DNA of 22,342 nt, from the IMG/VR virus record IMGVR_UViG_3300030098_007065, positions 63,203 to 85,544 of that record. The stretch is one strand, 5' to 3'. How positions within the stretch are numbered: position 1 is the first letter of the stretch; each line of letters opens with the position of its first letter. Below the pieces are notes generated by a model that was not told the DNA's origin, did no database searches, and saw nothing but the letters and a program-made list of their open reading frames with translations. This DNA comes from a virus. Below are positions 10,784-20,457 of this stretch, in pieces. The translations under genes and the position numbers were made by a program.

Positions 10784-11605
10784 ATGCCATCAACCCCTCC
10801 ATGTAATCAAAATAGATTAAACTGCCTCCCAGAGGAAGTTTTAGCAGCGACTGCAATACCTTCATGTGGTCAGCTTGTTAATCCATTTAATTTACAAGCA
10901 GAGCAGTTAATTTTTGATCAAGCATATAATGACTTAATTAATAATTTTGGTATACCAGTTGATTATTATATTAATACTTTTAATCTATCTGCAGCTGATT
11001 TACTTTATGGAGAAGATTTTGGTAATGAAACCAACAGAAGGCAATATCAAGGACCTCTATCAGGTATGCAAATGTATGTTGAATTATCTGATGATGCAGT
11101 AAATCTTTCTAGATTTGGTTTTGATCCAGATGATGAATTTACTGCCTTTGTACATATAAGTAGTTTTCAATCTACAGCTTCAGCCTATTTTGATTATTCA
11201 GCTGTAGCACAAGCAATAGAACCAAAAGCAGGTGATGTAATTGATCTTAAAGTGTTAGGTTGCGATCGACCTAATCAAAGAGGTTCTGTTATGTTTCAAG
11301 TAACAGAAAGAATGGATCAAGACTTATCTACTTTAAACCCTATACTTGGTCACTACGTTTATAGACTTCGTGGTAAGAGGTTTAACTACTCATTTGAGTC
11401 AGGCTTATCTAGTGAGCCTGTTAATGAACAAATTTATGATAGTACAAAGAGTGGTATACTATCTACAACCTTCTTTAGTCAATCAGCATCAGAAGATAAG
11501 ACGTATCCTAATGTGCATGATCCTTATGATAAAAATGAAGTATCAAAAACTCAAGTTACTGATATGGATGTTAACGATACTGATATTTACGGGTCGTATT
11601 ATTAA
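10784..11605 (+). CDS. Neck protein (T4 gp14-like)
   Basis: 273 aa, close to T4 gp14 (256 aa). The second half fits the neck-protein layout seen in T4-like phages: a block ending EPKAGDVIDLK, then MFQVTERMDQDLSTLNP and GHYVYRLRGKRFNYSFESG, matching the family pattern of a small, beta-rich domain with a phrase close to NP-x-x-x-L-x-x-Y-x-Y-x-L. The N-terminal 40 residues carry four Cys (positions 7, 14, 28 and one just before the first block are in or near PPCNQNRLNCL and IPSCGQ). It would join the DNA-filled head to the tail. The ATG follows the previous stop by 1 nt, so translation is probably coupled. The stop overlaps the convergent glycosyltransferase gene by 4 bp. Confidence 0.62.
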   Translation: MPSTPPCNQNRLNCLPEEVLAATAIPSCGQLVNPFNLQAEQLIFDQAYNDLINNFGIPVDYYINTFNLSAADLLYGEDFGNETNRRQYQGPLSGMQMYVELSDDAVNLSRFGFDPDDEFTAFVHISSFQSTASAYFDYSAVAQAIEPKAGDVIDLKVLGCDRPNQRGSVMFQVTERMDQDLSTLNPILGHYVYRLRGKRFNYSFESGLSSEPVNEQIYDSTKSGILSTTFFSQSASEDKTYPNVHDPYDKNEVSKTQVTDMDVNDTDIYGSYY

Positions 11606-12498
11606 GCTTCAACTGCTTTAATAATAGTTTGAACATCATGTAGTTCATCTAAACTATCATACGGGCATTGATGTATTGTTCCTCCGAAATCATAATCGTA
11701 AAAATAAGAATCAACCGTACCGTTATCTTTAGCAACCTTTGTAAGGATATTTGTATGAATATCATACCCAAAAACTTTTGGTTGTGTATTAACCCAGCAC
11801 ACCACGGAAGGTAGTTTAAGAGCTGCAGCTGCATGTTGTAAAGAAGAATCAACAAAGATTCGTTTTTCAGCATGAGCAATCATTGCAAATAATGGCTTTT
11901 TACCAATCGTTTTGTCAAATCTATGACAGTTATTTAACTTAGGGTGAAATTCATAACATATATGAACAATGTTATATTTTTCTGCTAACCCATCAACCAC
12001 TTCTTGTGCTTGAGCAGGGTGCATATCTCTTGTCCAAGAGTAAGGATGCTGTTGATGATCAGGGCCAGGTCCTCCAAATGGTTGGAATACTAGTAAAGGT
12101 TTTTGATCAACAGCAAACTGACTCATATATGCTCGTGCTTCTTCTATTTCTCTAAAATTAAAATTAAGGACAAGTTCTTCACTATTATATTTTATACCAA
12201 CCATATCACACCATGTGTCAATTAAGTGTGTCTTTTTTGTAATATGGTTTGTCTGCTTATATGGGTCTTGAGCGAATACTTTTACATCTTTACCTTTGAT
12301 AACATCTTGATAAAAATATGGTGTATTTCCTATTCTATAAAATCTAGCAATATCTTTATTTTTAACCCATACTTCAGGCCAAGCCGAAACAACAATAATC
12401 TTACGCTTTGGATTTGCTTTTTTATACGCATGCGTTACAGCAGTTGCGGCAACATTTTTTCCAATGCCTCCTTCAATGTGAAATACAGTAGTAGCCAT
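11602..12498 (-). CDS. Glycosyltransferase, GT9/heptosyltransferase-like (GT-B fold)
   Basis: 298 aa. The N-terminus VFHIEGGIGKN (5-14) fits the first GT-B strand and Gly loop of the family (usual phrase L-x-x-x-G-D). LLVFQPFGGPGP (135-146) resembles the start of the second Rossmann domain. FVDSSLQHAAAALKLPSVVCW (residues 215-235) is the diagnostic donor-binding motif in which D217-S-S and H222 precede AAAL and P. The enzyme should move a sugar from a nucleotide-sugar onto an acceptor. It is transcribed in the same direction as the giant fibre gene and 40 nt behind it, so fibre glycosylation is a reasonable idea. Modification of host surface glycans to block superinfection is another. Upstream, TATATA is a weak version of the late element. 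Confidence 0.78.
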   Translation of the reverse strand: MATTVFHIEGGIGKNVAATAVTHAYKKANPKRKIIVVSAWPEVWVKNKDIARFYRIGNTPYFYQDVIKGKDVKVFAQDPYKQTNHITKKTHLIDTWCDMVGIKYNSEELVLNFNFREIEEARAYMSQFAVDQKPLLVFQPFGGPGPDHQQHPYSWTRDMHPAQAQEVVDGLAEKYNIVHICYEFHPKLNNCHRFDKTIGKKPLFAMIAHAEKRIFVDSSLQHAAAALKLPSVVCWVNTQPKVFGYDIHTNILTKVAKDNGTVDSYFYDYDFGGTIHQCPYDSLDELHDVQTIIKAVEA

Positions 12499-12538: not shown

Positions 12539-14944
12539 TTATGGTCCAACAGAGATCTTTAAGTCAGTTCCGGAACGCCAGACAACACCCGCAACTTTTG
12601 GATCACTTGTTGGTATACCACAACCAGAGCAATCAGCACTAAGAAAGAGTCTATTAGTATGAAGCATATGACCAGAAACTGCAACAATATCAGAACCTAA
12701 TATTGAAGAATGACAAAAACATGCTCGGCTCGCTCCGGATCCACCACCTGGTCGTGGAGATGATGCGGTACCAACGCCACCAATAGTATTACAAAGCCCA
12801 CCGCCAATAAAACTAAAATTAGTACATATGCAACTTCGCTGACCACCAGCTATAGATGAAAAGCATCCACAGGAGTTTAACTGATTTGCATCTCCACCAA
12901 TAACAACGCTATTTTTTGCACATGTGGTGTGATTACTACCACCACCTATTATACTCAGACAGCCTCCTTTTAAAATAGCATTACAAAAACCACCAACGAG
13001 TGCAGCTTGATCTGTCGTAGTACAGTTAGCAGTACCTCCACCTATAAATGCACAATTTCCTGCTGCAGATAAAGACTGACCACCTACAACTGTAGAGTAA
13101 CAATTACGCGCTACGTTATTGCAACCTCCTACAATGTTTGAAAAACATCCATGAGCTCTATTATTCCTACCACCAACAACTACACTAGTTGATCCACATG
13201 CAGAGTTATTAGTACCGCCGCCTGCAAAAGCACTTGTTCCAACTACATTCGAAAAACCACCAACTACCACTCCATTTTTAGCGTCACCAGTAGTAGTATT
13301 TTTACTACCACCTACAATCACTGCTTGCCTACCACATGTAACAACATTTTCTTCCCCTCCGCCTATAAAGCTTGCTCGAGCACCACCTCCTGTTGCAGGT
13401 ACATTATTTTTATTACCACCAACAATTGTTGAAAAAAGATCTGCTGCTGAAAGAGCAAAACCACCACCGATAAATACACACGACGCTGTAATGTGATTAT
13501 GTTTACCACCTGCAACAGTTCCAGCATCACCTGTAACTTTATTGCCGTCACCACCCCCTATACTGCCATTAGTGCTTGTCACAGTATTAAAGCCACCTCC
13601 TACAATAATGCTACACGTTCCAGAGGAGCTATTACCCTCACCACCACCTACAAAAGATTTACCACCGCATGCACAGTTTCTTAAACCACCAACAACTGTA
13701 TCATAACAACAAGTACTAGCCCCAATATTGCATTCCCCTCCTCCAACGAATCCAATATTCGCAGCTCTATTATTACTTCCTCCTGCAACAGTAGAAAAGC
13801 ATCCGCAATCAGAAGCAATATTACTACAACCTCCACCAATAGTAGAATGGCGCCCACAAATGGAATTTGATTGCCCACCAGTAATAACGCTCTTAGCTCC
13901 ATTAACATTATTACCAACACCACCGCCGATAAAACCGAGTGTAGATCCTACCGAATTAGTATGTCCTCCAACTACAGCACTACCTTCAGAGCCAGCTGTA
14001 TTACACTGACCCCCTCCAATGAATGAACTTAAGCCAGTCGCACTACTCTTCATACCTCCAACAACAACTGAACCACAGTTACCTGAAGCTGTATTGCATT
14101 CACCACCACCAATAAATGAACTTAAACCTGATGCAGTATTTGCACCTCCACTGACAACAGCTGCATATTGTTGACTAGCGCAGTTATCAAAACCACCACC
14201 AACAAAAGCATAATCTGATCTTGCGCATGAACTAAGACCACCTACAGCTGTAGAAAAGTCCGCGTTTGCTTGATTATTCTTACCCCCACCTACAAAAGCT
14301 TGGTTGCCATTAGCTATATTATAAAAACCACCCGCTACAACATCTTGAGAGCCACTAGAACTATTCTTAAACCCTCCTCCTACTGTAGAACAAACACCAC
14401 TAGCGCAATTTAGCCTACCGCCTAAAATACTCGCACTGGCGCCAGACGCATCATTAGCTTGACCACCACCGACAGTTGCACAGCCACCAGACCCGGCCTT
14501 GTTACTAAATCCACCACCTACAGTCGAGCATGCACCACATGCAAAGTTTGATCGACCTCCTCCAATATTAGTATTAGCTTGAGTAGCTGAGTTCTGTTGA
14601 CCGCCGACAACAGAACAACCACCTGTTGCGCTGTTACCAGTTCCACCAACAACAGAGGCTAGAGTACCACTACTTACAATACTCTCACCAATAAACAATC
14701 TTCCTGTAGCACTTAAGTCTCCTACTGTTGATTGAGTTTTTTGAAAGAAATTATTACCCAGTGGAGAGGCTATAGGTCTATCGATTGGCTGACCTGCTGC
14801 TGTTTGGTAAGTTGCACCTGAAAGATAATTTGTAATTGAGCTCAGAGAAGCGCGTCGAGTTTGTGCGTCGTCGACTAATGCTACCTCTTCGGTTCCGGTA
14901 TATGGTATAACGCCTTCATTGAGCTCAGTAATCTTTTTACCCAT
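12539..14944 (-). CDS. Giant cysteine-rich beta-roll fibre protein (YadA-head-like repeats)
   Basis: 801 aa. The N-terminus (KITELNEG...PYTGTEEVALVDD...TRRASLSSITNYLSG, residues 4-43) is the typical virion-attachment start of phage fibres. Residues about 96-759 consist of roughly 42 repeats of 14-17 residues with the pattern S/A-x-V/I-x-GG-x-x-N-x-A-x-G. This is the pattern of left-handed beta-roll heads such as YadA. The last 42 residues (PKVAGVVWRSGTDLKISVGP at the end) form a capping or tip domain. About 40 cysteines sit at the turn positions, which is unusual. It probably trimerises and binds the host surface. It starts at an ATG 5 nt after TAAATA and is followed by a glycosyltransferase gene. 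Confidence 0.8.
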   Translation of the reverse strand: MGKKITELNEGVIPYTGTEEVALVDDAQTRRASLSSITNYLSGATYQTAAGQPIDRPIASPLGNNFFQKTQSTVGDLSATGRLFIGESIVSSGTLASVVGGTGNSATGGCSVVGGQQNSATQANTNIGGGRSNFACGACSTVGGGFSNKAGSGGCATVGGGQANDASGASASILGGRLNCASGVCSTVGGGFKNSSSGSQDVVAGGFYNIANGNQAFVGGGKNNQANADFSTAVGGLSSCARSDYAFVGGGFDNCASQQYAAVVSGGANTASGLSSFIGGGECNTASGNCGSVVVGGMKSSATGLSSFIGGGQCNTAGSEGSAVVGGHTNSVGSTLGFIGGGVGNNVNGAKSVITGGQSNSICGRHSTIGGGCSNIASDCGCFSTVAGGSNNRAANIGFVGGGECNIGASTCCYDTVVGGLRNCACGGKSFVGGGEGNSSSGTCSIIVGGGFNTVTSTNGSIGGGDGNKVTGDAGTVAGGKHNHITASCVFIGGGFALSAADLFSTIVGGNKNNVPATGGGARASFIGGGEENVVTCGRQAVIVGGSKNTTTGDAKNGVVVGGFSNVVGTSAFAGGGTNNSACGSTSVVVGGRNNRAHGCFSNIVGGCNNVARNCYSTVVGGQSLSAAGNCAFIGGGTANCTTTDQAALVGGFCNAILKGGCLSIIGGGSNHTTCAKNSVVIGGDANQLNSCGCFSSIAGGQRSCICTNFSFIGGGLCNTIGGVGTASSPRPGGGSGASRACFCHSSILGSDIVAVSGHMLHTNRLFLSADCSGCGIPTSDPKVAGVVWRSGTDLKISVGP
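12668..14659 (-). repeat. About 42 degenerate in-frame repeats of 42-51 bp encoding a beta-roll
   Basis: Each unit encodes 14-17 residues centred on GG followed by a turn with Asn, Ala, Gly and often Cys. Units starting S-F-I/V-GGG tend to alternate with units starting S-V-V/I-x-GG, giving a higher-order period of about 30 residues from about unit 11 onward. No two units are identical at DNA level, so this is an old array and not a fresh expansion. Confidence 0.8.
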
Positions 14945-14956: not shown

Positions 14957-15196
14957 TTACTTCGGCGCTTTTAGCCTGCAACAAATAGCAATAACTATTG
15001 CAAAAATTCCAGAGAATAGTAAATGTTTCTTAAATCCATCAACCGTTGTGCAAAGGCTATTGAAGTCTGTAGCTTTATTTCCACTGACTTGAATAGCCTC
15101 TAACGAAAGCTTTAATTCTTCCGCGCAAGTATAGCCTCTTATAACAAAAGTTAAGATTATAGCAGATAGAATATATACTAGATACCTTGGTTTCAT
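14957..15196 (-). CDS. Small two-helix membrane protein, possible lysis-cassette member
   Basis: 79 aa with two hydrophobic segments, residues about 5-19 (YLVYILSAIILTFVI) and 59-73 (LLFSGIFAIVIAICC), separated by a polar loop with two Cys. The start overlaps the stop of the upstream gene as ATGA, so translation is coupled. The pairing with a holin-like protein suggests an antiholin, a second holin or a spanin-like factor, but no family is recognised. Confidence 0.6.
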   Translation of the reverse strand: MKPRYLVYILSAIILTFVIRGYTCAEELKLSLEAIQVSGNKATDFNSLCTTVDGFKKHLLFSGIFAIVIAICCRLKAPK

Positions 15197-15598: not shown

Positions 15599-16324
15599 GT
15601 GAAGATAAAGTTTGATGAAGCGTCTCATACTTATACGCATAAAGATACAAAAGAAAAGTTTATTTCAGTAACTACTCTACTTGGCAAATACAAACAACCT
15701 TTTGATAGAGAAGGTCATTCTAAAAGAGTAGCTGATAGAGAAGGAGTATCGCAGGAGCTTGTTTTAGAAATGTGGGAAAAGGAAAAGGTACGAGCTTGCA
15801 ACCGCGGTACAGATATTCATAAGATCTTAGAAGATTATATTAGCTTTGGTGATGTTAAAGATAACTATGGGTGGTTATGTAAATCATATGATAAAGCTGC
15901 TGAGCGATCTATAGATTCATTTAAAAATGTATTATGTGAGAATCTTTTATATGATGAGGAATATAAGGTGGCTGGTACAGCTGATCTTATCTATGAACAT
16001 AAAAATGAGTTTACTATAGGTGACTTTAAAACTAATAAACGATTCAGATTTAGTTCTCCATTTAGCGAAAGATTAAAGGATCCAGTAAGTCATTTACATA
16101 ACTGCGAGTTTAATTTATATGGATTGCAGCTATCTATGTATGCTTATCTCTACGAGAGAATGACTAGTAAGAGATGTAGAAAATGTGTTATCTATTATTT
16201 GAAAGATGATAGATTTTTGTCTTATCATGTAAACTATATGAAAGCAGAAGTAGAAGCTATCTTAGCTAGTATGCAACAGAGCGGAGCAGAAGTCCCAGTT
16301 AACAATATCGAAAAAATTGCTTAA
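15599..16324 (+). CDS. PD-(D/E)XK nuclease (RecB/Cas4-like)
   Basis: 241 aa. The motifs appear in the order of RecB-family nucleases: NRGTDIHKILED with H74, AGTADL with D129, IGDFKTNK with D142 and K144 as the D-x-K catalytic strand, and YGLQLSMYAYL with the Q-x-x-x-Y helix (Q177, Y181). It probably acts as an exonuclease or flap nuclease in phage recombination or repair, or degrades host DNA. The GTG start follows its promoter by 8 nt; no ATG precedes it in frame. The last 63 bp overlap the 3' end of the convergent superoxide dismutase gene. Confidence 0.87.
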   Translation: MKIKFDEASHTYTHKDTKEKFISVTTLLGKYKQPFDREGHSKRVADREGVSQELVLEMWEKEKVRACNRGTDIHKILEDYISFGDVKDNYGWLCKSYDKAAERSIDSFKNVLCENLLYDEEYKVAGTADLIYEHKNEFTIGDFKTNKRFRFSSPFSERLKDPVSHLHNCEFNLYGLQLSMYAYLYERMTSKRCRKCVIYYLKDDRFLSYHVNYMKAEVEAILASMQQSGAEVPVNNIEKIA

Positions 16325-16888
16325 CCATTCTTTTCTTTTAGGACCATACATTAGATAATAACTATGCTCCCATACATCAACACCGAGAATAGGCTTACCT
16401 AAATTAAACATTAAAGGATTATCTTGATTAGGTGTTCTTACTAAATCTAATTTATCATTTTTCTCTACCAACCATCCCCAGCCAGAACCAAACTGCCCAG
16501 CTGCATTATCAATAAATTCTTTTTTAAACTTTGAAAAAGTACCAAATCGTTTTAGTATTCTATCTTTTATTTCTCCATTAAAGTCACTACCCCCAGGCTT
16601 CATCATATTAAAAAACAGCTGATGGTTATAAGCTCCACCGGCATTATCTTTTATATGATCATTATATTTTGATATCTCTTTAACTAATTCAACTAAGGCT
16701 GGCTTTCTCTTACTACTCATAGCAGTATTAAGCTTTTTAACATACCCCTTATAATGATCATTATAATGAAAATCGGTAGTTTGTCTATTAACTATGGGTT
16801 CTAAAGCATTTAAAGAATAAGGCAAGACTATAGGTTTATATGTACTTACTTCTTCTAAAAGCAAATCTACTTGATTTAAGAACTTCAT
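16262..16888 (-). CDS. Superoxide dismutase, Mn-type of the Fe/Mn family
   Basis: 208 aa, about the usual length with a 15-residue N-terminal extension; no signal peptide. It converts superoxide to oxygen and hydrogen peroxide. All four metal ligands are present: H41 (DFHYNDHYKGYV), H89 (GGAYNHQLFF), D171 and H175 (VDVWEHSYY). Gateway residues H45 and Y49 are present too. The pair GG at 84-85 and Q155 (TPNQDNPLM) matches Mn enzymes, where Fe enzymes usually have Gln at the first site. VNWDF near the end is the family C-terminus. It lies inside the region overlapping the nuclease gene, so the 63-bp overlap is real. A late element 6 nt before the ATG predicts expression with the virion genes. 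It is a rare cargo gene for a phage. Confidence 0.95.
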   Translation of the reverse strand: MKFLNQVDLLLEEVSTYKPIVLPYSLNALEPIVNRQTTDFHYNDHYKGYVKKLNTAMSSKRKPALVELVKEISKYNDHIKDNAGGAYNHQLFFNMMKPGGSDFNGEIKDRILKRFGTFSKFKKEFIDNAAGQFGSGWGWLVEKNDKLDLVRTPNQDNPLMFNLGKPILGVDVWEHSYYLMYGPKRKEWLSNFFDIVNWDFCSALLHTS

Positions 16889-17152: not shown

Positions 17153-18205
17153 ATGAGAATAGAAACTGAACTTAAGTACGATTTTGATGACGTACTTATC
17201 CGTCCTAAGCGATCGACTTTAAAATCAAGAAAAGAAGTTGATTTGCATAGATCATATAAGTTTAAACATGGCGGAACGTATTTTGGCATTCCTATTATGG
17301 CTGCTAATATGGATGGGGTAGGAACTTTAGATGTTTCAAAAGAGATAGGAGATTTAGGATTATTTACTTGCTTAAGAAAATCTTTAAGTGAAAAATTTCT
17401 CATTAAGGAATTAAAAGCTACCGAAGGTAATAATCTTGCAGTTACTGTAGGTAGAAATAAGGATGACCTACAAAAGCTCAAGAGAATAGTTAAAGAGCTT
17501 TCACCTTGTTATAAATTAAAATATATATGCGTTGATGTAGCAAATGGTTATAGTCAGAGTTTTGTTGATTTTATTAAAGAAGTAAGAGATGAAATACCTT
17601 ATGCCAATATTATAGCAGGTAATGTGGTTACTGGAGAGATGGTTGAAGAGCTTTTACTAGCCGGTGCTGATATTATTAAAGTTGGTATTGGATCTGGAAG
17701 TGTATGTACAACGCGAATTAAAACTGGAGTAGGTTATCCTCAATTTAGTAGTATTGCTGAATGCGCTGATGCTGCTCATGGTCTTAACGGTCATATAGTA
17801 GCTGATGGGGGTTGTACTTCTCCTGGTGATGTAGCAAAAGCTTTTGGTGCTGGAGCTGATTTTGTTATGCTCGGTTCAATGTTAGCCGGCTGTAAAGAAG
17901 GAGGTGGTAAAATAGTTAAAATTGACGGTAAAGAATATGTAGAGTTCTATGGAATGAGTAGTAAAGTCGCTAATGAAAAACATAATGGCGGTCTTAAAGA
18001 TTATAGGACTTCAGAAGGTAGAAGAGTTCTACTACCCTATAGAGGAGAAATTAAGAACGTAGTACAAGATATTCTAGGAGGTTTAAGAAGTACATGTACT
18101 TACGTTGGAGCTAATCAACTTAGACATCTTAGCAAATGCGCAACGTTTATAAGATGTACAAATACTCATAGTAAAATATATGAAGCTAATACTTTAGAAA
18201 TATAA
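17153..18205 (+). CDS. guaC: GMP reductase
   Basis: 350 aa against 347 in E. coli GuaC, collinear over the full length and without the CBS domains of IMP dehydrogenase. It reduces GMP to IMP with NADPH and releases ammonia, moving guanine nucleotides back towards the adenine branch. It starts MRIETELKYDFDDVLIRPKR, then has IPIMAANMDGVGT, AGNVVTGEM, the active loop GIGSGSVCTTR with catalytic C185 and T187, VADGGCTSPGDVAKAFGAGADFVMLG and FYGMSS. DILGGLRSTCTYVGA near the C-terminus is the GuaC form. It is the first gene of a four-gene operon; its stop overlaps the next start as TAATG. The promoter class suggests expression before the late genes. Confidence 0.95.
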   Translation: MRIETELKYDFDDVLIRPKRSTLKSRKEVDLHRSYKFKHGGTYFGIPIMAANMDGVGTLDVSKEIGDLGLFTCLRKSLSEKFLIKELKATEGNNLAVTVGRNKDDLQKLKRIVKELSPCYKLKYICVDVANGYSQSFVDFIKEVRDEIPYANIIAGNVVTGEMVEELLLAGADIIKVGIGSGSVCTTRIKTGVGYPQFSSIAECADAAHGLNGHIVADGGCTSPGDVAKAFGAGADFVMLGSMLAGCKEGGGKIVKIDGKEYVEFYGMSSKVANEKHNGGLKDYRTSEGRRVLLPYRGEIKNVVQDILGGLRSTCTYVGANQLRHLSKCATFIRCTNTHSKIYEANTLEI

Positions 18206-19059
18206 TGAAAAAGATACTTATACTCGGATATGGATACGTTGGGGGATACCTCTACAGCAAATTAAAAAAAGATAATGATGTAGAAATTGTAAGAAGAGAA
18301 TTTTTAGACTATACTAACGCTAACGATCTAATAAAATATCTTTGTAGTTCTAAATTTGATTATGTTATTAATGCTTTTGGTTTTACTGGTAGACCGAATG
18401 TTGATCAAGGTGAACTAGAGCCTGAATTATGTTATGAGTTAAATACTTTTGCTCCTTTAAGAGTTAGTACTATATGTCAGTGCTTAGGTATAAATTATAT
18501 TCATATTTCTTCAGGGTGTATTTATACAGGATACGACAAGCCTTATGAAGAAGATGATATTCCTAATTTTGGTTTTCATGATGAAGAATCTTCTACCTAT
18601 TCTAAAAGCAAACACGCGTATGAGCTAGGATGTGATTATGGTCTAATTTTTAGAGTAAGAATGCCATTTTGCGATAAGCTTCATGAAAGATCATATCTAA
18701 CTAAAATTAAAAAATATGATAACTTAATCAATTTAACTAACTCTAAAACTTATATACCTTCACTAACTCAATTTGTAAGTGAGTTTATTGCTTCAGGGCA
18801 GGAAGCAAAAGAAAAAGATATAATTAATTTTGTTCAACCTGAACCACTCCGTACAGATGATATTGTATCGCTAATGAAAACTTATAATCTTGGTAACAGT
18901 AACTGGGAATGGGTACAGTTTGAAGAATTAAATTGTAGAGCAAATAGATCTAATTGCGTATTAGATACTTCAAAGATAGGATCAAAGTATGGATTTTATC
19001 CAATAAAGGAAGAGGTTGCTATTCGCGGTGCATTGAATAAGATAATAAAGGATGAATAA
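18205..19059 (+). CDS. NDP-4-keto-6-deoxyglucose 3,5-epimerase/4-reductase-like SDR (UER1/RmlD type)
   Basis: 284 aa, extended short-chain dehydrogenase. The NAD(P)-binding start is LILGYGYVGG (G8, G10, G13) and the catalytic pair is Y132-x-x-x-K136 (TYSKSKHAYE). Several phrases recall the bifunctional plant UER1/RHM C-terminal enzyme, also known in giant viruses, more than bacterial RmlD: VINAFGFTGRPNVD (54-67), SSGCIYTGYDKPYEEDDIPNF, and FRVRMPFCDKL...LTKIKKYDNLINLTNS. That enzyme turns the 4-keto-6-deoxy product of the dehydratase into an L-rhamnose nucleotide without a separate RmlC. The matching 4,6-dehydratase is two genes downstream. RmlD-only reductase activity remains possible. It overlaps guaC by 1 nt and the next gene by 8 nt. 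Confidence 0.83.
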   Translation: MKKILILGYGYVGGYLYSKLKKDNDVEIVRREFLDYTNANDLIKYLCSSKFDYVINAFGFTGRPNVDQGELEPELCYELNTFAPLRVSTICQCLGINYIHISSGCIYTGYDKPYEEDDIPNFGFHDEESSTYSKSKHAYELGCDYGLIFRVRMPFCDKLHERSYLTKIKKYDNLINLTNSKTYIPSLTQFVSEFIASGQEAKEKDIINFVQPEPLRTDDIVSLMKTYNLGNSNWEWVQFEELNCRANRSNCVLDTSKIGSKYGFYPIKEEVAIRGALNKIIKDE

Positions 19060-19492
19060 AGAAATAGTAGGTTTTACTGCAGGCAATTTTGATTTATTAC
19101 ACCCTGGGTATATTAGATGCTTTAGGGAAGCTAAAAGACATTGTGATAGATTTATTGTTTTTTTGCAGAAAGATCCTTCTCTTCATAGAAAGAGTAAATA
19201 TAAACCTGTTATATCTTTATACAATAGATATGAAGCGTTAATGGCTATTAGATATATTGATGATGTATATACGTATCAAACAGAAGAAGAGCTTTATAGC
19301 TTGATTAAGTTTTGGAAACCGGATATTCGTATCTTAGGAGAAGATTATATTGAAAAAGAATCATTTACTGGTGATGATTTACCTCCTAAAGTAATATATA
19401 CGACACGTTCTCATGGGTGGTCTACTACGCGACTAAAAGATCTTATTACAAAGCAGACAATAAAGCAGAATCCTGACGTTTTAAAGAAATGA
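19052..19492 (+). CDS. Cytidylyltransferase-like nucleotidyltransferase (TagD/HldE-C type)
   Basis: 146 aa, a single domain of the HxGH superfamily. FTAGNFDLLHPGYI (8-21) is the nucleotide-binding start, but the second His of HxGH is Tyr (H17-P-G-Y20). NRYEALMAIRYIDDV (58-72) fits the TagD helix with R59. ILGEDY (94-99) matches the usual GDDW/GDDY. HGWSTTRLKDLI (121-132) is the C-terminal ISTTxI signature. Relatives activate glycerol-3-phosphate or a sugar phosphate with CTP or ATP. Placed between two deoxysugar genes, it probably activates a sugar or polyol for the same glycan. It overlaps both neighbours (8 nt before, ATGA after), so the operon is translationally coupled. Confidence 0.85.
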   Translation: MNKEIVGFTAGNFDLLHPGYIRCFREAKRHCDRFIVFLQKDPSLHRKSKYKPVISLYNRYEALMAIRYIDDVYTYQTEEELYSLIKFWKPDIRILGEDYIEKESFTGDDLPPKVIYTTRSHGWSTTRLKDLITKQTIKQNPDVLKK

Positions 19493-20457
19493 ATACATAT
19501 GTTGTAACTGGAGGTTGTGGTTTTATTGGATCATATGTAATCAAAGAGCTTCTCAAAAAAGAAGATATTTTTATATACAATATCGATAAGATGGGTATCG
19601 GCTCATCTAAAGAAAATATTGTAGAAGATGATCGCGTCGAAAATCATTTTATGGATATTGCTAATGATGATGCTTGGAGGCTACATATGTCGCATCCTTT
19701 AGATTTTATATCTGAAGATATCAATTATGTTATTCATTTAGCTGCTGAGTCGCATGTTGATCGTTCTATTGATAACCCTTTATCGTTTGTTGATTCAAAT
19801 TTAAAAGGTACAGCTAATATATTAGAGTTAGTAAGAAAACATAGATCTAGAATGGTTCATGTATCAACTGATGAAGTGTATGGTCATTTAGGAAAGGACG
19901 ACCCTCCATTTACAGAAGAGAGTTCTCTTGCTCCAAGATCACCATACTCAGCAACTAAGGCCGGTTCAGATTTATTAGTACAGTCTTATATTGAAACGTT
20001 TAATATTAATGCTTCAATTACTAGATGTTGTAATAATTACGGACCGCGGCAAGATGATGAAAAATTAATTCCTACAGTAATTAGATCTATTATTAAAGGA
20101 AATAAAATACCAGTTTACGGTACAGGAGAAAATATACGTGAATGGATTAACGCTGAAGATCATGCTAAATCTATTCTAGAAGTTTTACATACTGATAGCT
20201 GTCAAGTACATAACTTACCAGGCAATTTAGTATGCAATAATTTAGAGCTAATTAATAAAATTATTAAAGAAGTAGAGCATCAATTTCCAAACTATAAAAG
20301 AAAGAAAGATGAATATATTGAATTTGTACCTGATAGAAAAGGACACGACTTCAAATATCAGCTAGCTACTAAACATAAATTGGATGCTATAAAAAAGCAA
20401 AAGAAATTTAGTTTATCATCAACTGTAAAATATTACGTTGAAAAATATCGATCTTAG
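19489..20457 (+). CDS. NDP-glucose 4,6-dehydratase (RmlB-like)
   Basis: 322 aa. It removes water from dTDP- or UDP-glucose to give the 4-keto-6-deoxy sugar, the entry step to rhamnose and other deoxysugars. Motifs in order: TGGCGFIGS (7-15), HLAAESHVDRSID (83-95), STDEVYGHL (126-134) with catalytic D128-E129, SPYSATKAGSD with Y153 and K157, NNYGPRQ...KLIPT, GENIREWI and DRKGHDFKY. These are all features of the RmlB family. The natural base (dTDP or UDP) cannot be told from the sequence. It is the last gene of the guaC operon; the start overlaps the preceding stop as ATGA. Only 6 nt separate its stop from that of the convergent next gene. Confidence 0.93.
   Translation: MNTYVVTGGCGFIGSYVIKELLKKEDIFIYNIDKMGIGSSKENIVEDDRVENHFMDIANDDAWRLHMSHPLDFISEDINYVIHLAAESHVDRSIDNPLSFVDSNLKGTANILELVRKHRSRMVHVSTDEVYGHLGKDDPPFTEESSLAPRSPYSATKAGSDLLVQSYIETFNINASITRCCNNYGPRQDDEKLIPTVIRSIIKGNKIPVYGTGENIREWINAEDHAKSILEVLHTDSCQVHNLPGNLVCNNLELINKIIKEVEHQFPNYKRKKDEYIEFVPDRKGHDFKYQLATKHKLDAIKKQKKFSLSSTVKYYVEKYRS

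Follow-up and report, generated by a model that had tools for sequence, protein, structure and literature searches.

A cysteine-rich beta-roll phage fibre and its genetic linkage to a heptosyltransferase-like enzyme: candidate S-glycosylation of viral fibres

Main finding

The 22,342-nucleotide stretch of virus record IMGVR_UViG_3300030098_007065 analysed here (the window) encodes at 12539-14944, on the minus strand, an 801-residue fibre-type protein including 41 cysteines (5.1%). Cysteine-rich viral proteins of the same fold were often found to be encoded together with a GT9/heptosyltransferase-like enzyme and, conversely, loci retrieved by the enzyme alone mostly carry cysteine-rich proteins just upstream of it. 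This two-way linkage is strong and recurs in many unrelated aquatic viruses; it calls for an explanation even if the modified residue proves to be another one. The linkage to a glycosyltransferase-like gene suggests the thiols as sugar acceptors, and we give about even chances to phage-encoded S-glycosylation of the fibre cysteines, a chemistry read from genetic linkage. If true, phages would make S-linked glycoprotein fibres by a virion glycosylation system of their own, which would revise the reading of host recognition, fibre stability and escape for abundant marine phages.

A predicted beta-roll fibre with 41 cysteines

The coordinates of the fibre open reading frame (ORF) are exact, with a stop codon present, and its composition is dominated by Gly, Ser, Ala, Val, and Asn. 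Cysteine makes up 0-2.9% of 19 of the 21 other window ORFs counted, the exceptions being a 284-residue epimerase-like ORF (3.2%) and a 79-residue ORF (5.1%). All the fibre cysteines lie beyond residue 109, and the protein is divided as follows:

14657..14944, minus strand: N-terminus, 96 residues (MGKKITEL...), cysteine-free; phage relatives can be aligned over it, and it is probably where the fibre attaches to the virion
12755..14656, minus strand: left-handed beta-roll of 15-residue turns, residues 97-730, 37 cysteines, assigned from the register and a model of residues 97-354
12542..12754, minus strand: C-terminus, 71 residues (731-801), with a VSxxMLHxxxL...PTxxPxxxGV end conserved in alignments, 4 cysteines, two of them in an insert missing from the aligned relatives

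The repeat unit is a turn, usually 15 residues long, following the register [S/T/F][I/V][G/V/A]GGxxNxAxGxxS, which gives 42 turns, so that the preliminary description of this DNA was right in counting about 40 cysteines in about 42 repeats of a beta-roll. The best solved relative by sequence is the Moraxella UspA1 head (3PR7, E 1.6e-15), singled out for its unusual 15-residue turns in the BpaC paper (PMC9543794). A monomer model of residues 97-354 (258 residues, four relatives in the alignment) reached a mean predicted local distance difference test score (pLDDT) of 90, and structural alignment of this model placed the BpaC head 7o23 first (Z 21.7, 241 residues aligned, root mean square deviation 7.5), with CbpF (Z 18.0), BoaA (12.4), and EibD (10.8) as further matches. 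UspA1 was absent among the matches listed, which carries no weight against the likeness. Foldseek alone returned nothing at E<0.5 for the same model, and the full-length fibre model (pLDDT 61.9) gave no useful fold match. These results support a phage fibre-type protein with a predicted trimeric-adhesin beta-roll, the fold being modelled on one 258-residue piece. As for its genomic setting, the window belongs to an 85,544-base virus contig with tail sheath and terminase genes, the terminase matching T4-like phages; a phage-genome context for the fibre is thus present on the same contig. The fibre had no PHROG match, and tblastn searches of cultured phages with the fibre, its ends, and a 251-residue middle piece yielded none or chance matches, for which the BLAST low-complexity filter is possibly responsible. 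The middle piece matched three plasmid records.

Trimeric autotransporter adhesin heads (UspA1 3PR7, with 15-residue turns, and BpaC 7o23, with 14) share with the fibre the left-handed parallel beta-roll, the GG and N positions and a Phe1-Gly3 core pattern (PMC9543794). Of the 450 viral-roll turns that start with Phe (position 1), 444 carry Gly at position 3. Since both positions face the core on the BpaC numbering (PMC9543794; the mapping is ours), packing of large against small residues about a threefold axis is likely, which gives indirect support to a homotrimeric fibre. Unlike these adhesins, the fibre is cysteine-rich, is encoded by a T4-like phage and shows no signal peptide evident by eye; no Pfam family was found in it at E<=1, and hence no C-terminal YadA-type membrane anchor.

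Cysteine-rich rolls and the enzyme gene tend to occur together

The gene that follows the fibre is:

11602..12498, minus strand: GT9/heptosyltransferase-like protein, 298 residues, 40 base pairs downstream of the fibre (PF01075, E 3.8e-4)

Among 21 enzyme homologues, PF01075 was matched by eight (E<=0.1; best E 4.6e-5) and heptsyl_trn_I by six. Their conserved columns include GGxGK, RD, and DSxxxH, the last of which we take to be a motif type of GT9 enzymes, and C97 is the sole nearly invariant cysteine.

Roll proteins were collected using a DNA pattern in which none of the fixed bases demands a Cys codon, applied to viral, bacterial, and archaeal sequences. The resulting 120 viral and 119 cellular stretches, together with earlier loci, yielded 172 roll proteins, thinned to 154, and comparisons of cysteines per turn were confined to rolls of 4 or more strict turns (82 viral, 34 cellular). 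tblastn detected enzyme homologues in 20 of the 82 viral roll loci, all of them with at least 0.32 cysteines per turn, in none of the 26 below 0.3 and in none of the 34 cellular loci. When whole viral records were considered, the enzyme was present in 32 of 50 with rolls of at least 0.3 cysteines per turn and in 1 of the 21 below that value (p 3e-6), this single cysteine-poor record resting on a weak partial match. Among records of at least 20 kb, counted by hand, the figures were 26/34 and 0/11.

Surface composition, compared with the enzyme-positive loci typed by hand, changed mainly in cysteine, which occupies 10.4% of the surface positions in viral rolls with the enzyme, 2.5% in viral rolls without it and 0.2% in cellular rolls. 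The corresponding values were 17.3, 21.4, and 19.1% for Ser, and 13.2, 15.5, and 12.1% for Thr. With the enzyme, Lys is slightly up (2.4 vs. 1.1%) and Asp down (1.7 vs. 4.1%). A rise in cysteine with slightly lower Ser and Thr would be an odd pattern were Ser or Thr the acceptor.

The association also holds in the reverse direction. Out of 80 loci fetched by the enzyme alone, 76 have an ORF of 100 residues or more upstream on the same strand, and this ORF contains at least 3% cysteine in 67 of them (median 4.39%, vs. 1.27% in 577 other ORFs). After thinning to 29 enzyme loci, the upstream ORF reached 3% in 23 of 26 cases and was the most cysteine-rich ORF of at least 150 residues in 23 of 24. 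The cysteine-rich neighbours extend beyond rolls of the GGGxxN type to proteins with SNFIG-type repeats, TVTG-type fibres (2.9-5.2%) and a 1229-residue protein (3.5%). A search with the TVTG fibre N-terminus returned close relatives only.

Cysteine positions and pairing

In the window fibre, 37 of the 39 register-assigned cysteines occupy positions 6, 7, 9, and 11-14 of the turn, the other two being at position 15. Because fixed residues at 2, 4, 5, 8, and partly 10 are preferred by the register finder, the zero counts there are partly built in; the less constrained positions 1 and 3 are also devoid of cysteine. Across the 82 viral rolls, 781 of 813 cysteines fall at 6, 7, 9, and 11-14, and the unforced inward-type positions 1, 3, 10, and 15 hold 32, the zeros at 2, 4, 5, and 8 being forced by the search expression. 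Judging from the alternation of residues and from the description of BpaC, these seven positions would form the exposed face (PMC9543794). In the family that shares the N- and C-termini of the fibre (6 proteins, 104 turns), cysteine accounts for 10-23% of the residues at each of positions 6, 7, 9, 11, 13, and 14. Moreover, cysteine is kept in homologues above the average surface residue in 12 of 12 pairs of relatives (e.g., 68% vs. 47%, 45% vs. 30%, and 29% vs. 14%), the pairs being non-independent and the cysteine frequency itself contributing to the excess at high divergence.

The preliminary description had pointed to Cys-x-Cys and Cys-x-x-Cys motifs and had proposed surface ladders, disulphide staples or metal sites. 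Pair statistics do not uphold this part of it. In the window fibre, CxC occurs 5 times against 3.5 expected from register-preserving shuffles (p 0.26), CxxC once against 2.4, and CC once against 2.3. Cysteines at the same position of successive turns number 86 against 88 expected in 66 viral rolls, and 0 against 7.4 in the six family members; a looser register gave 23 against 30.6. Within a turn, cysteines lie close together less often than expected (59 pairs vs. 83), a shortage shared by Tyr, whereas Ser and Thr do stack. Pairs between position 14 and positions 6/7 of the next turn, a statistical proxy for inter-chain pairs, are as frequent as expected (28 vs. 30). The lack of stacking and the depletion of near pairs make disulphide ladders and metal-binding cysteine clusters unlikely, and these readings were rejected on that basis. 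A redox-sensitive fibre with stapled or metal-binding thiols would fit the 41 cysteines at exposed-type positions and the superoxide dismutase gene that lies nearby and is kept in relatives, but besides the pair statistics it leaves the glycosyltransferase linkage unexplained, and we consider it improbable. Free thiols that are each directly adhesive, towards host thiols or soft metals, would agree with cysteines that are dispersed and mildly conserved. Nevertheless, so many free surface thiols would be expected to oxidise outside the cell, and the linkage to a sugar enzyme is again unaccounted for, and we consider this explanation improbable too.

Viral versus cellular rolls and other phage fibres

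Viral rolls contain 0.51 cysteines per turn and cellular rolls 0.024 (p 9e-11). Surface composition is otherwise similar, the other difference being acidic residues, which are commoner in cellular rolls. The notion that adhesin heads of this fold lack cysteine is therefore true of the 34 cellular proteins and fails for the 82 viral ones, and the window fibre, described at first as very unusual, turns out to be one of many viral rolls that commonly carry cysteine.

Part of this gap may arise because exported proteins avoid cysteine: a signal-like hydrophobic N-terminus was observed in 15 of the 19 cellular rolls whose start is visible and in 1 of 62 viral ones. These counts favour a neutral explanation, in which the cytoplasmic folding of phage fibres merely tolerates cysteine while exported cellular rolls avoid it. 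It is weakened by other phage fibres, presumably cytoplasmic too, whose median cysteine content is low: 0.15% in 116 enzyme-free TGDxTVTG fibres, none of which reaches 2%, and about 0.35% in 26 NTAIG-repeat proteins, with one at 2.6%. The NTAIG set consisted of 28 loci, 26 of them with the repeat protein, and 25 records were searched for the enzyme with no positive control within the search. Tolerance alone also fits poorly with the low surface cysteine of enzyme-free viral rolls (2.5%, vs. 10.4% with the enzyme) and with the 10-23% cysteine at each of six positions in the window's family. We thus regard the neutral explanation as improbable. The NTAIG outlier at 2.6% belongs to locus L375, and the enzyme was not found in its 18.7-kb record. 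In the TGDxTVTG loci, the enzyme was present in 2 of 118, neither beside that fibre, which makes this set uninformative on linkage.

A divergent enzyme clade in cultured phages

Divergent homologues of the enzyme are carried by cultured phages. Prochlorococcus phage P-SSM2 encodes its homologue, PSSM2_307, after PSSM2_304 and PSSM2_306, two proteins with 36 cysteines each (10.1%), and downstream of the homologue are annotated a carbamoyltransferase, a heptose kinase/adenylyltransferase, a carbohydrate kinase, a phosphoheptose isomerase, a cysteine dioxygenase, and an epimerase. The sugar cluster PSSM2_304-313 thus resembles the window in having an enzyme homologue near cysteine-rich proteins, but these are Gly-rich proteins without the beta-roll motif, and heptose genes and a carbamoyltransferase are annotated. 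According to Sullivan et al. (2010), it was not known whether cyanophage sugar-gene clusters function or are "stuffer DNA" (PMC3037559); under S-glycosylation, clusters regarded as lipopolysaccharide (LPS) genes would gain a testable function.

The divergent-clade search examined 63 of the 80 loci, leaving out L443 (partial) and 16 first-clade loci. An ORF with at least 5% cysteine was found within 4 kb of the divergent enzyme at 31 of 39 non-redundant loci, compared with 0/28 and 1/21 in controls, and the neighbours are unrelated proteins rich in Gly, whose cysteine content goes up to 11%. ORFs with 9-11% cysteine lie upstream of the divergent enzyme in Marine viruses AG-345-O18 and AG-345-P14. 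The TGDxTVTG control set also contained one divergent enzyme, whose previously unseen upstream DNA served as a check: directly before the enzyme (L594:1703-4497) it holds a tandem of three Gly-rich ORFs, with 11.3, 10.0, and 8.4% cysteine, which resemble a set of related fibre tips. The pairing of enzyme and cysteine-rich protein exists in cultured phages, in P-SSM2 and, more weakly, in HTVC112P. In Pelagibacter phages HTVC111P and HTVC112P, a tail fibre adjoins a divergent enzyme homologue annotated as "putative glycosyl transferase", which shares about 22% identity with that of the window.

Two further arrangements were observed in this clade. A cysteine-free ORF of 225-242 residues, perhaps an assembly protein, lies between PSSM2_304 and PSSM2_306 (PSSM2_305, L353:4100-4777) and between the cysteine-rich ORFs and the enzyme at L594:4570-5295. 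In Vibrio phage K479, a 1643-residue tail protein (L354:6735-11666) with 39 cysteines, many in Ala-rich AYADGIVT-type repeats, directly follows a divergent enzyme homologue.

Proposed S-glycosylation, its rivals and exceptions

In the scheme that we propose, the fibre would be a trimer with a shaft built as a left-handed parallel beta-roll (about 42 turns), the solvent-facing cysteines of which serve as sugar acceptor sites. The GT9/heptosyltransferase-like enzyme from the next gene would move a sugar onto these thiols in the host cytoplasm, giving a sugar-coated fibre whose cysteines would be glycosylated ahead of any contact with oxygen. Sulfation of the fibre by an adjacent sulfotransferase may follow in related phages. 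The trimer, the action of the enzyme on the fibre, the choice of cysteine over Ser/Thr and the sugar itself are all steps that we infer, heptose being a guess, and the benefit could lie in thiol protection, solubility, or receptor binding or masking. On a larger scale, we tentatively propose, at slightly below even chances, a widespread class of aquatic phages in which a heptosyltransferase-like enzyme builds S-linked glycans on cytoplasmically folded receptor-binding fibres of several unrelated folds, some with their own sugar-nucleotide genes, carbamoyltransferase or sulfotransferase.

Sugars are placed on cysteine by the SunS/ThuS-type S-glycosyltransferases of glycocins, which belong to another GT family and act on small secreted peptides. 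To our knowledge, S-linked glycoprotein chemistry is known only from such small bacteriocins, and our literature search, with subscription papers mostly outside its scope, found no account of cysteine-rich or S-glycosylated phage fibres. GT9-type enzymes act mostly on LPS, which counts in favour of an alternative in which the enzyme glycosylates host LPS (e.g., against superinfection), or Ser/Thr of the fibre, and high cysteine has another cause in the same lineages. Ser and Thr are in fact abundant on the roll surface. The nearest functional analogue, TibC of the bacterial autotransporter heptosyltransferases (BAHT; TibC/AAH), is likewise of the heptosyltransferase type and heavily glycosylates a beta-rich (beta-helical) adhesin, but on Ser (PMC4358343). 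Cyanophage sugar-gene clusters, for their part, have been taken as LPS genes of unknown function (PMC3037559). Against this alternative, the enzyme is accompanied by a fourfold rise in cysteine and by none in Ser or Thr; cysteine richness is confined to the neighbouring protein rather than spread over the whole locus; and the linkage spans several folds and two enzyme clades. We therefore judge modification of Ser/Thr or LPS unlikely, if worth keeping in mind. The four-Cys iron finger of BAHT enzymes was not encountered in the window enzyme family, in which C97 stands alone.

Several observations weigh against S-glycosylation of the fibre. The product of 11602-12498 matches PF01075 with 20.3 bits, below the gathering cut-off of 22, and neither a sequence search nor a profile search at E<=1 retrieved any PDB chain for the enzyme, solved BAHT members included. 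Cysteine in viral rolls declines with guanine-cytosine content (rho -0.47), so that lineage or habitat may confound the linkage, and the HTVC111P/112P fibres, unlike that of the window, have only 1.5-1.9% cysteine. The enzyme was missing from 18 of the 50 cysteine-rich records (8 of 34 at 20 kb or more), and a broader profile also found it in 0/18. Conversely, the enzyme lies beside low-Cys genes in AG-345-L05, its upstream neighbours have 1.5-2.1% cysteine at L516 and its neighbour 0.7% at L310, while L056 combines a cysteine-free roll with a weak partial enzyme match. Eight of the 39 divergent-clade loci showed no ORF with at least 5% cysteine within 4 kb. Finally, the thresholds of 0.3 per turn, 3%, and 5% were picked after seeing the data.

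No general shared alternative neighbour gene was found beside the enzyme-free cysteine-rich rolls. At L033:4399-5661, a cysteine-rich roll lacking the usual enzyme has a PF11397 GlcNAc transferase nearby, which might act as a substitute. L009, L042, and L087, also with cysteine-rich rolls and no usual enzyme, have an unknown ORF in common (L042:8452-9429, 326 residues, no Pfam match). The edge of the L128 contig falls inside a sulfotransferase, and the enzyme may be cut off there.

Neighbouring genes

Of 25 roll loci with the first-clade enzyme, 15 have a PF13469 sulfotransferase beside it, as do 26 of the 78 loci in the enzyme set; no such gene was found at any of 64 second-clade loci or in four searched stretches of the window's contig. 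In relatives the sulfotransferase gene often adjoins the enzyme at a distance of 10 bases or less (e.g., L055:3552-4364 and L039:6709-7524). Other features of the window are:

18205..20457, plus strand: RmlD-like and dTDP-glucose 4,6-dehydratase-like genes, flanking 19052-19492 on both sides; possible sugar-nucleotide supply
19052..19492, plus strand: nucleotidyltransferase resembling heptose-1-phosphate adenylyltransferase (TIGR02199, E 4e-19, far below cut-off; TIGR01518, E 3e-17); possible donor supply
14957..15196, minus strand: 79-residue ORF, 4 cysteines, just upstream of the fibre, kept at 7 loci with 56-72% identity
15193..15510, minus strand: holin-like protein, upstream of the fibre (phrog_785, E 0.0019), kept in relatives

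An IMP dehydrogenase/GMP reductase-like gene (17153-18205, plus strand; PF00478, E 1.4e-74) precedes the sugar-nucleotide genes. The phage-encoded iron/manganese superoxide dismutase (16262-16888, minus strand; PF02777, E 1.7e-33; PF00081, E 3.6e-19) overlaps the end of an exonuclease-like gene and is retained with 80-84% identity in L003, L004, L031, L032, L072, and L132.

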